The notes beneath the pieces were generated by a model. It was not told where the DNA came from, made no database searches, and saw only the letters and a program-made list of their open reading frames with translations. Position numbers and translations under genes: made by a program. This document shows, one piece after another, positions 25,295-29,596 of a DNA stretch of 40,605 bases. This DNA is from an uncultured Methanobrevibacter sp. (GTDB lineage Archaea > Methanobacteriota > Methanobacteria > Methanobacteriales > Methanobacteriaceae). The stretch is from positions 1 to 40,605 of the forward strand of contig NZ_CAMJCX010000013.1 of NCBI RefSeq assembly GCF_946404245.1, in the 5' to 3' direction. Position 1 is the stretch's first letter. Each line of letters starts with the position of its first letter.

Positions 25295-26410
25295 TTAGTT
25301 AATATAATTAATTTTGTATTTACAATTAATATTATTTATAATTTCGATAATTTTATCATGAACATCTTCAATGCTTGAATAATCATAAGTGACCTGTTTA
25401 TCGCCGAACATTATCCTCTTAATATCTTGACCGCAGATGTCATCAAAACCACTTTCAACTTCAAAGATGACAGAATTTTTAACCTTGAATCCATATTCGA
25501 CAACCTTGTCCAAATCCCCATCAGTTATTCCGACCACAGGTATATCAAATCTAAACAATATGTCAGAAGATATCAATGTTGTATCATCACCAACAGTAAT
25601 CACGAGAGATGAGTCCCTGAATTTGTATACGTCCTCACCTGCATGGTCCAAAAATGCAACCTTAAATTCATTAGGTTTTTCATGAGATATGACTCTTGGT
25701 GTGACTTCAGCATGCCTTAAAAGACCTGTCTTTATAATCGCAGAATCCAAATCAACCTCACCCAGCTTTTCAAGACCGTGCTGCTTTAACTCACCGCCAA
25801 CAATATCGACAATGTGGTTGTCCCTGGCAATCAGAGTGAGTTTGTCAGAATTGGTTTTACCGATGACAACACTGTTGACCATGATGTTTTCACCCGGACT
25901 GACTCCATGAACTATCCTCTGATTGATGCCAGCATCATCCTGCCTGATATGACAGTCATAAACCTCTTCCGGTGTCACGATAGCCAAATTTAGTCTTTGA
26001 GACAGTTCGTTGACAATTTCCAGATTATTATTCCATGCAATAATGCTTCCGTCCTCCTCACCGGGCCGTTCAATCTGGATTACTGGAATGTCATTGCTGG
26101 AAATTTTTTCCTTATAATGATTATAGACCTTATATCCGAATACCTGGCCTGTTACATTGGACTTTCCATAGTTTAACAAGAATATCACATCAACATTATC
26201 ATCATGAAATATCTTTAAGGAATCACTTGGAACCAGCTTTCGTGAAATGTCTATAACATTCTCCAAACTCGCATCAATTACAGCAGTCCTGCCCATAGTT
26301 CCGCCAAGTCTTGATGAGACTTCACCGTATTCCTTTAATAAATTAATTAACTTTAATGCATAACCAGAATCTATAACATTTGGTCCATGAACCACTACGC
26401 CTACCTTCAT
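25295..26410 (-). CDS. Conserved methanogen protein (DUF2117-like)
   Basis: 371 aa; MKVGVVVHGPNVIDSGYALKLINLLKEYGEVSSRLGGTMGRTAVIDA. Confidence 0.7.
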   Translation of the reverse strand: MKVGVVVHGPNVIDSGYALKLINLLKEYGEVSSRLGGTMGRTAVIDASLENVIDISRKLVPSDSLKIFHDDNVDVIFLLNYGKSNVTGQVFGYKVYNHYKEKISSNDIPVIQIERPGEEDGSIIAWNNNLEIVNELSQRLNLAIVTPEEVYDCHIRQDDAGINQRIVHGVSPGENIMVNSVVIGKTNSDKLTLIARDNHIVDIVGGELKQHGLEKLGEVDLDSAIIKTGLLRHAEVTPRVISHEKPNEFKVAFLDHAGEDVYKFRDSSLVITVGDDTTLISSDILFRFDIPVVGITDGDLDKVVEYGFKVKNSVIFEVESGFDDICGQDIKRIMFGDKQVTYDYSSIEDVHDKIIEIINNINCKYKINYIN

Positions 26411-26913
26411 CTGTTCACCTTAATTCTTTTCTTAAATATTTTAGATCCGCAAATTTCGCAGTCATCAAAGGGATAATCTTCAGGAAATTCCTTTTTACAG
26501 CCTTCACATACCTTCTTCCAATTGTAAATTCCTTTAATACCTTCAGTGATAATCCCCGAATAAGAAATATTCATAATCTTTAGAGTATTCTGTATTGTAT
26601 AATCATCAGTAATTACCTTTACATTTTCACCCTGTTGAGACATCATGTATGCAAGTGAAATTAATTTTTTATCAGGCAATGATAATCTTAAAATATCACC
26701 ACTTTCAGAAATAATAGTATTGACACAAGATAAATACTCTGATGGGACATCTTGTATAACTAATAAACCCTCATTGACTACTGAATCAAATTTTAATCGA
26801 GATTCAAAATCCTTTATTTCAGCAGTTATTTCAGGAACAGTGTAATTCCTTTTTGAAGTCAATTCAAAGCCGTTAATAAATGCTGATGCATCGAGCACAT
26901 AACAAATTTCCAT
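26407..26913 (-). CDS. nob1: Ribosome biogenesis endonuclease Nob1 (PIN plus zinc ribbon)
   Basis: MEICYVLDASAFINGFE (PIN domain), VITDDYTIQNTLKIMNI, CEGCKKEFPEDYPFDDCEICGSKIFKKRIK zinc ribbon. Confidence 0.9.
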   Translation of the reverse strand: MEICYVLDASAFINGFELTSKRNYTVPEITAEIKDFESRLKFDSVVNEGLLVIQDVPSEYLSCVNTIISESGDILRLSLPDKKLISLAYMMSQQGENVKVITDDYTIQNTLKIMNISYSGIITEGIKGIYNWKKVCEGCKKEFPEDYPFDDCEICGSKIFKKRIKVNR

Positions 26914-26991
26914 AATCATATTTTCTTGCACAAAATTAATAAATCTTAGCAAGAAAAATTAAGGAATTTGAAAAATGAGGTGAAATGGCAA

Positions 26992-27079
26992 TGGGGAGAA
27001 GATAGGAATAAGATTGGAAAAACTTTGGAATAAGATTAGAATAAGTTTTAAAGAAGTTTGGGACAAGTTTGGAAAAATC
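26992..27079 (+). repeat. Eight imperfect tandem 11-bp direct repeats, consensus about TTGGAATAAGT
   Basis: TGGGGAGAAGA / TAGGAATAAGA / TTGGAAAAACT / TTGGAATAAGA / TTAGAATAAGT / TTTAAAGAAGT / TTGGGACAAGT / TTGGAAAAATC, exact 11-nt register. Confidence 0.75.
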
Positions 27080-27081
27080 TA

Positions 27082-27132
27082 TTTAAATTTATAGGTTTAA
27101 ATGTGTTATTACCGAAAAATCATAGATTTTTC
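27082..27132 (+). promoter_or_regulatory. TATA box plus palindromic operator at the predicted start site
   Basis: TTTAAATTTA at 27082-27091; perfect palindrome GAAAAATC-ATA-GATTTTTC at 27114-27132, about 26 bp downstream. Confidence 0.6.
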
Positions 27133-27163: not shown

Positions 27164-27955
27164 ATGAATGTTCACAATGAAATTAATGATGATATCAAAT
27201 TTCTAGCAAAGTCAGAAATTCGATTGAAAATATTAAGTGAATTAAATGAACGCCCAAACGATATTCGAGGACTTGTTAAAAAAACCAAAATCACATATAG
27301 TTCCGTTTCAAGCAACGTGAATAAACTAGCAGAGAACAATTACATTAAAAAAGTTGAAAAGAAATATTACTTAAACCCAATTGCTAAAATTTATTTCAAA
27401 ACATTAATGGACTTTAAAAAAAGTATTGAAATAATACAAGTATACAATTCATTCTGGGACAAGCACAATATTACTCAACTAAGCATCAATTCCATAAAAA
27501 ACATCACTGATTTAAAGAATGCTCAATTAATTGAAACCACACCCCTCGACATATACAAAACCCACAATACCACTAAAGATCAATTAATTAAAGCAGAAAA
27601 CGTAAAAGCTATTTTTCCTTACTTGCATCCGGAATATCCCGAATTAATTGAAGAAATTTTAATTAATGGAGGGAATGTGGAATTAATTGTTCCAAAAGAC
27701 ATATTTAAAGCCATTATCTCACCAATCGATGAATCATTGAAAAATAGGGCTGTTAAACAAAAAAGATTGAAAGTCTTTACAGTTACTAACTCATTGAATT
27801 TATATTTGACCATATGTGATGAAAAAATGAGCCTAGGATTATTTAAAAATGATGGAAGCTTTGATCAGAATAGAATCTTAATTTCAAATGATTTAAAAGC
27901 ATATGAATGGGCAGACGAACTATTTAAACACGTGAAACACATGGTGAGACAATGA
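27164..27955 (+). CDS. Winged-helix transcriptional regulator (FilR1/DUF1724-like), paralogue 1
   Basis: 263 aa; SEIRLKILSELNERPNDIRGLVKKTKITYSSVSSNVNKLAENNYIKK wHTH and a C-terminal effector-like domain; SD AGGAGG. Confidence 0.8.
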   Translation: MNVHNEINDDIKFLAKSEIRLKILSELNERPNDIRGLVKKTKITYSSVSSNVNKLAENNYIKKVEKKYYLNPIAKIYFKTLMDFKKSIEIIQVYNSFWDKHNITQLSINSIKNITDLKNAQLIETTPLDIYKTHNTTKDQLIKAENVKAIFPYLHPEYPELIEEILINGGNVELIVPKDIFKAIISPIDESLKNRAVKQKRLKVFTVTNSLNLYLTICDEKMSLGLFKNDGSFDQNRILISNDLKAYEWADELFKHVKHMVRQ

Positions 27956-28749
27956 CCAATATCCAAACAAAAAGAGAACTTAACAAAGAGTTTAAAGATG
28001 TTAAATACATATTGACATCAAGTATGCGTGCAAAATTACTTCTAGCACTGTACGAAATTCCAAAAAACCTAGATGAACTTAGACATGAATTAAAAAAACC
28101 ATCAGCTACCATATTACATGGGCTTAAAGAATTAGAGACGATTAATTTAGTGAGGAGAGCTCATAAATACTATGAACTAACTTCAAACGGTTACTTACTA
28201 ACCACAAATATGATTAAATTAATCGAAAATTGGTATTCTTTAAGTAAAAGTGAAACATTTTGGGACAATCATGACCTTTCAGATATTCCTGAAGACATAA
28301 TTAAGAATATTTATCTTTTAAAAGATGCAGAATACGTAAGTTCAACAACAAGCGATTTGTCAATTGCATTCAACAAATACATTCAGCTAATATCAGAAGC
28401 ATCAAAACTACAAATAATTCTTCCAATCTATTCTGAAAATCACTTTAAACATTTGATTGATCTATTAAACTCAAATAAATTACAAAAATTAGAATTAATC
28501 ATGAATAAAGAAATTTATGAATCAATACATAAAAACAGAAAGTTCCAAAAAGAGTTACTCAAACATGAAAATGTGAAAACAACAGTGATTGATAAAGATT
28601 TGAAAATATTTTTAACATACGGTGAAGAGTTTATGGCGCTTACCTTGTTTTTCAAAGACGGCCACTACGATGATTCGCAAATATTAATAGGGCATGACCA
28701 AAATTCACTTAACTGGGCTTACGAACTGATAAAATATTCACGGAGATGA
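27952..28749 (+). CDS. Winged-helix transcriptional regulator (FilR1/DUF1724-like), paralogue 2
   Basis: 265 aa; SMRAKLLLALYEIPKNLDELRHELKKPSATILHGLKELETINLVRR; ATGA overlap with the preceding gene. Confidence 0.8.
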   Translation: MTNIQTKRELNKEFKDVKYILTSSMRAKLLLALYEIPKNLDELRHELKKPSATILHGLKELETINLVRRAHKYYELTSNGYLLTTNMIKLIENWYSLSKSETFWDNHDLSDIPEDIIKNIYLLKDAEYVSSTTSDLSIAFNKYIQLISEASKLQIILPIYSENHFKHLIDLLNSNKLQKLELIMNKEIYESIHKNRKFQKELLKHENVKTTVIDKDLKIFLTYGEEFMALTLFFKDGHYDDSQILIGHDQNSLNWAYELIKYSRR

Positions 28750-29089: not shown

Positions 29090-29596
29090 ATGGAAAGTGA
29101 AACATCAAAACAACATCAAAAAGAATCTTCAAAAGAAATCACATGTGGAGTAATCACACTAAGTGACAGCCGAAAATCAAAAAAAGTTGATTTGTCAGGA
29201 AAATACATTTCTGAAGAAATTGAAAAACGTTACACCTTAAAAGAAAGGAGCATAATTCCTGATGAAAAAGAAGATTTGATCAATGTCATTGAAGAAATGA
29301 CCGAAGATGGAATTGATGTTATTTTAACAACAGGAGGAACAGGTCTTGATTCCCGAGACATAACTGTGGAAACTGTTGAATCACTTTTTGAAAAAAAACT
29401 TGATGGTTTTGGTGAAATATTTCGTATGAAATCATACGAAGAAATTGGTTCAGCAGCATTACTTTCAAGAGCCACAGCAGGAATCTATAAAAAAAGCATA
29501 ATATTTTCCATGCCTGGGTCACCTAATGCTGTAAAAACTGCATTGGAAATAATTATTGATGAACTTCCACATTTTGTTCATCATGTTAAAAAATAA
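29090..29596 (+). CDS. moaB: Molybdenum cofactor biosynthesis protein MoaB/MogA
   Basis: 168 aa; GVITLSDSRKSKKVDLSGKYI, VILTTGGTGLDSRDITVETVESL, SRATAGIYKKSIIFSMPGSPNAVKTAL. Confidence 0.93.
   Translation: MESETSKQHQKESSKEITCGVITLSDSRKSKKVDLSGKYISEEIEKRYTLKERSIIPDEKEDLINVIEEMTEDGIDVILTTGGTGLDSRDITVETVESLFEKKLDGFGEIFRMKSYEEIGSAALLSRATAGIYKKSIIFSMPGSPNAVKTALEIIIDELPHFVHHVKK

Follow-up and report, generated by a model that had tools for sequence, protein, structure and literature searches.

Introduction

Tandem direct-repeat operators are known. The parC iterons of plasmid R1, recognised by the ribbon-helix-helix protein ParR in plasmid partition, are direct repeats of 11 bp located at a promoter that is autoregulated. 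OmpR/PhoB-type winged-helix proteins bind, head to tail, direct repeats in which a 7-bp motif and a 4-bp spacer together span 11 bp, as described for PhoP (PMC4832192). AspA (Sulfolobus pNOB8), which acts together with ParB and ParA, has a 23-bp palindrome as nucleation site and covers over 200 bp of the DNA that precedes its own gene (PMC5120986). FilR1 of Methanosaeta harundinacea, which carries a REC domain, binds its own promoter, and a term search of the paper that describes it returned no mention of a repeat array (PMC3991700). Operators are known for few archaeal regulons, and the literature searched contained none of the present design for Methanobrevibacter, nor any description of 11-bp repeat arrays in archaeal or Methanobrevibacter promoters.

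The locus analysed here lies in a 40,605-nt stretch of DNA (the window) from an uncultured Methanobrevibacter sp., whose 1.83-Mb assembly comprises 105 contigs. Its repeat array precedes an operon that encodes two FilR1-like regulators (genes 1 and 2) and a small ArsR-like winged-helix protein (gene 3). The new element is the setting, which combines an archaeal TATA/BRE promoter with an ArsR-like candidate reader. With OmpR/PhoB-type operators, the array shares direct repeats of 11-bp pitch upstream of a promoter and a winged helix as candidate binding protein; it differs in its many more units and its archaeal promoter, and in that gene 3 is ArsR-like and lacks a receiver domain. Pfam searches of the operon regulators returned HTH_5/ArsR-type and FilR1_middle domains only, and no receiver or OmpR-type effector domain. 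Similarity to AspA consists of a small archaeal winged helix with a weak sequence match (E 0.0016) and a fold match, but the array is built of direct repeats and the operon lacks ParBA; the neighbouring genes are FilR1-like genes and moaB, with neither parB nor parA among them. Genes 1 and 2 resemble FilR1 in carrying FilR1_middle (above the curated Pfam cut-off) and differ from it in that domain searches found no C-terminal REC domain. The parC iterons have the 11-bp direct repeats in common with this locus, whereas neither a ribbon-helix-helix protein nor a partition function was seen here. Gene 3 has the fold of ArsR/SmtB metal sensors without their conserved cysteine metal-site motif, since no cysteine was invariant among 15 gene 3 proteins.

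Results and Discussion

Repeat array and operon in the source window

A preliminary description of the window had reported about eight 11-nt repeats ahead of a TATA-like box. This was borne out: eight units stood in exact 11-nt register, and TTTAAATTTA, which lies within the TATA box TATTTAAATTTA, began 2 bp past the last unit, TTGGAAAAATC (Table 1). Self-match of the array at lags of 11, 22 and 33 nt was 0.69, compared with 0.32 ± 0.03 in 5000 dinucleotide shuffles (z = 11.6). Its lag-11 score of 0.71 was the highest of all 88-bp segments in the 40.6 kb (mean 0.28, sd 0.07); the runner-up (0.61) lay in a stretch that also scored high at many other lags. A scan for sigma-70 promoters, the wrong promoter type here, and for terminators gave nothing relevant. 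Elsewhere in the window, an archaeal SRP RNA was identified at 325-639 on the reverse strand (Rfam RF01857, 199.8 bits).

Table 1. Features of the locus (positions in the window) and related arrays at other genes (genome and contig).
Feature	Position	Strand	Remark
Divergent PIN-domain (Nob1-like) gene	26407..26952	-	array sits between its promoter and the operon promoter
Array, eight imperfect 11-bp direct repeats, consensus TTGGAATAAGT	26992..27079	+	sequence, lag scores
Last array unit TTGGAAAAATC	27069..27079	+	occupies the expected BRE site (TFB recognition element); BRE by position only
TATA box TATTTAAATTTA	27080..27091	+	kept in orthologues
Start-site inverted repeat GAAAAATC-ATA-GATTTTTC	27114..27132	.	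recurrent position, lineage-specific arms
Gene 1, FilR1-like regulator	27164..27955	+	HVO_A0261_N winged helix and FilR1_middle; first start codon of the operon
Gene 2, second FilR1-like regulator	27952..28749	+	recognition helix KPSATILHGLKEL
Gene 3, 110-aa ArsR-like winged helix	28754..29086	+	candidate array reader; recognition helix from D55
moaB-like gene, next after gene 3	29090..29596	+	possibly cotranscribed
Arrays before ~50-aa genes (L142, L151-L159, L161, L171)	G104:C140; G106:C12 and C10; G005:C12 and C14; G113:C63; G026:C86; G023:C36; G025:C11; G122:C29; G125:C1; G002:C29
Arrays before DUF6932 gene pairs (L150, L143, L172)	G000:C90:996-1026; G117:C34; G017:C24

Conservation within Methanobrevibacter

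Close relatives of the operon were all found in Methanobrevibacter, for the most part in rumen genomes. The proposal that the array upstream of the operon is regulatory was supported, and conservation of the 11-bp spacing in orthologous operons, which the preliminary description had named as a test, was indeed observed: arrays with z > 3 were present at 57 of 60 promoters (one per species of the genus; median z 7.6), a count restricted to Methanobrevibacter orthologues in which a TATA box could be recognised. Mean self-match over the first 30 loci was 0.61 (lag 11), 0.60 (lag 22) and 0.58 (lag 33), versus approximately 0.25 between these peaks, and the period was exactly 11. Units counted back from the TATA box shared the same register, at a fixed distance from it. 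An automatic count, which is generous at its high end and assigns a score even to an array-less locus (L022, see below), gave 3 to 17 units per locus. At one locus (L104) gene 3 was accompanied by just two to three units, and in G012 the array was bounded on either side by a contig end, one of which carried more than 20 units.

No array was found at orthologous operons in the other genera of the family that were examined, including Methanothermobacter-like genomes, or in another family of the same order. A sister genus (g17) contained gene 3 and, at best, a weak array. Arrays were likewise not found at paralogous FilR1-like genes of the source genome and other genomes, or at genes for small gene 3-like winged helices elsewhere in the family, in other genera.

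The array unit was lineage-specific, with TTGG or TTGA in most genomes and TTCA in one clade as well as some early-branching lineages; variants included TTGGAATAAGT, TTGAACAAAT, TTCATGGAAT and TTTAAGGGAAG. Judged from this comparison, the unit sequence is quickly evolving. Of the TTC-class genomes, 10 of 11 had a four-unit TTCA pattern, compared with none of 22 TTG-class genomes, while the TTGG pattern was absent from all 12 TTC-class genomes searched. That the two classes were never mixed within a genome indicates one trans-acting reader per genome. A pattern search of 34 genomes, at the sensitivity used, found no arrays of the non-host type, which points to a change of specificity in that reader. 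Unit type changed approximately three times on the tree, and a formal independent-pairs test had two to three pairs to work with.

Arrays upstream of other genes

Pattern searches with the known unit types revealed further arrays; owing to this reliance on known patterns, the list of targets is incomplete. Those located outside coding sequence were of the host genome's type and lay directly upstream of TATA-like boxes. They preceded a gene for a protein of approximately 50 aa (12 copies, spread over 10 species), a gene pair made up of DUF6932 and a partner of approximately 215 aa, flanked by hemB-like and aroC-like genes (three species, including the source genome), and a gene for a 337-aa protein (three species, in two of which the gene was in pieces). 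The ~50-aa family (MAILNIEVLKKIIENVPEDYDVEF...) was apparently near-leaderless and had no Pfam or PHROGs match; its distant homologues lacked arrays. The DUF6932 protein matched the PADLOC candidate-defence family PDC-M63A. Arrays at these target genes comprised three to six units, with an array-TATA spacing of 11-13 bp, compared with the fixed spacing among operon orthologues. By these pattern matches, the array serves as operator for a small regulon and not for this operon alone, with targets that include uncharacterised accessory genes of the main gut and rumen methanogens. Three additional matches (L173, L176, L177) lay inside coding sequence and were dropped as chance. As a separate observation, TTGG 11-mer arrays of more than 400 bp, without a clear promoter role, occurred in intergenic DNA of two genomes (L174, G125:C24:215656-216092; L175, G124:C28), and the L174 array showed a higher-order repetition of 77 bp.

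Two explanations that dispense with a specific reader were considered. The variable number of units and the long array that runs up to a contig end in G012 could reflect slippage in a neutral minisatellite. The fixed TATA distance, genus-wide retention despite divergent units, and independent arrays at unrelated target genes speak against such an origin, which is hardly credible. Alternatively, the array might act as curved DNA or as a positioning track for archaeal histones, based on AA/TT phasing of approximately 11 bp. AA and TT indeed occurred once per turn in every unit variant, and AA/TT periodicity of 10-11 bp is common in genomes (PMC3372288). However, the core letters (GG, GA, CA) were kept within lineages and shared by distant loci within one genome, arrays occurred at few promoters only and disappeared together with gene 3, and their period was exactly 11. 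A purely structural element is therefore very unlikely.

Candidate reader of the array

The array is probably a multi-unit operator for a trans-acting regulator that the operon itself encodes, with the gene 3 winged helix as the foremost candidate. The sole locus without any array, L022 (genome G007, 95% complete), had also lost gene 3 from its operon. A 130-bp remnant occupied its place; the translation of this remnant gave a weak match to gene 3 at its C-terminal end (tblastn E 0.007, in a tiny database), and no gene 3 orthologue was found elsewhere in G007 (best E 9e-4). This joint loss of array and gene 3 is one case; genomes G016, G029 and G035, which lacked the operon, are incomplete and were not usable as further loss cases. 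At another locus (L119, G107:C47), genes 2 and 3 were fused in-frame in one natural open frame of 360 aa.

The unit sequence and gene 3 changed together between lineages, consistent with gene 3 being the likely reader. Position 55 of gene 3 was D or N in 42 of 42 TTG genomes and S, Y, H or G in 12 of 12 TTC genomes, an association that is suggestive and, with only approximately three class changes, cannot reach significance alone. Among 617 protein columns tested, two separated the classes perfectly: D55 in gene 3 (one of 93 columns) and Q105 in gene 1 (one of 261); gene 2 had none in 263. The gene 3 fold was modelled confidently (pLDDT 91), with a recognition helix at H56-68 and residue 55 at its start. 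The model matched ArsR/SmtB repressors and AspA; AspA and 5duk were also recovered by profile. ArsR-type dimers usually bind palindromes, which counts against gene 3 on direct repeats. Further points against gene 3 are the short array beside it at L104, the 11-13 bp spacing at target genes, the array-less gene 3-like paralogues of other genera, and g17, where gene 3 has a weak array at best.

If the array were instead read by gene 1, by gene 2 or by some unlinked factor, gene 3 would have an accessory role. Such a reader would agree with the binding of FilR1 to its own promoter in Methanosaeta (PMC3991700) and with two columns of gene 1: Q105, which separated the classes as well as D55 did, and S50, which is N in most of the TTC clade. 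Both Q105 and a near-miss column, Y69, lie outside the gene 1 recognition helix. This helix was nearly invariant despite the changed operator; its S50N replacement occurred neither in all TTC genomes nor in these alone. The recognition helix of gene 2, KPSATILHGLKEL, was practically invariant across the genus (entropy 0.01 bits), a degree of sequence conservation that suggests some conserved target of gene 2. With genes 1 and 2 also intact at L022, where the array is gone, a reader other than gene 3 appears rather unlikely. The preliminary description had tentatively linked the array to the encoded regulators in general. Autoregulation by an operon protein is indeed probable, and gene 3, not the FilR1-like genes 1 and 2, is its best candidate. 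With the operator written out in approximately 60 species, in two specificity classes and with one loss and one gene fusion provided by nature, the reader, its code and the evolution of its specificity are directly testable.

Proposed mechanism

With gene 3 as reader, gene 3 subunits would be bound head to tail, one on each 11-bp unit (TT[G/C][G/A]...AA). Because a unit recurs at each helical turn, the subunits, presumably cooperative, would form a row along one DNA face that ends against TBP/TFB at the BRE/TATA. On DNA of approximately 10.5 bp per turn, the row would wind slowly round the helix, which a filament could tolerate. The gene 3 protein would regulate, besides its own operon, a few accessory genes with arrays of three to six units. 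The FilR1-like proteins would probably act as partners or in ligand sensing, and may use the start-site inverted repeat. We tentatively propose a genus-specific regulator that assembles head to tail into a filament along 11-bp arrays, which differ widely in length and end at TFB. Its recognition helix and its operator would switch specificity jointly at all sites, and its accessory targets would include genes of a candidate phage-defence family.

Repression, including autorepression, is slightly favoured as the sign of control, as a guess from three features: the overlap of the last unit with the BRE, TATA boxes close to consensus, and a fold of the repressor type. The same features weigh against an activator array, on which the same reader would recruit TBP/TFB from upstream of the BRE. 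Known archaeal activators sit directly upstream of BRE/TATA, as does the array, at a distance fixed among orthologues, so that activation is a serious, if less probable, possibility.

Start-site inverted repeat

The preliminary description had placed a palindrome near the predicted start as a second element, and the comparison with orthologues upheld it. The perfect inverted repeat GAAAAATC-ATA-GATTTTTC was the single match in the window at up to three mismatches (0.11 expected by chance). A suggested GAAAAATC half-site common to this palindrome and the last array unit was not supported and looks coincidental, because many relatives keep TTGGAAAAATC while their start-site arms differ. At the same place, approximately 25 bp downstream of the TATA box, 22 of 55 orthologues had an inverted repeat (p ≤ 0.05; approximately three expected), with different arm sequences such as GAAAAATC/GATTTTTC, AGAAATTT/AAATTTCT and AATTCATGAA/TTCATGAATT. 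This element may serve a dimeric FilR1-like protein as operator or form a hairpin at the 5' end of the RNA.
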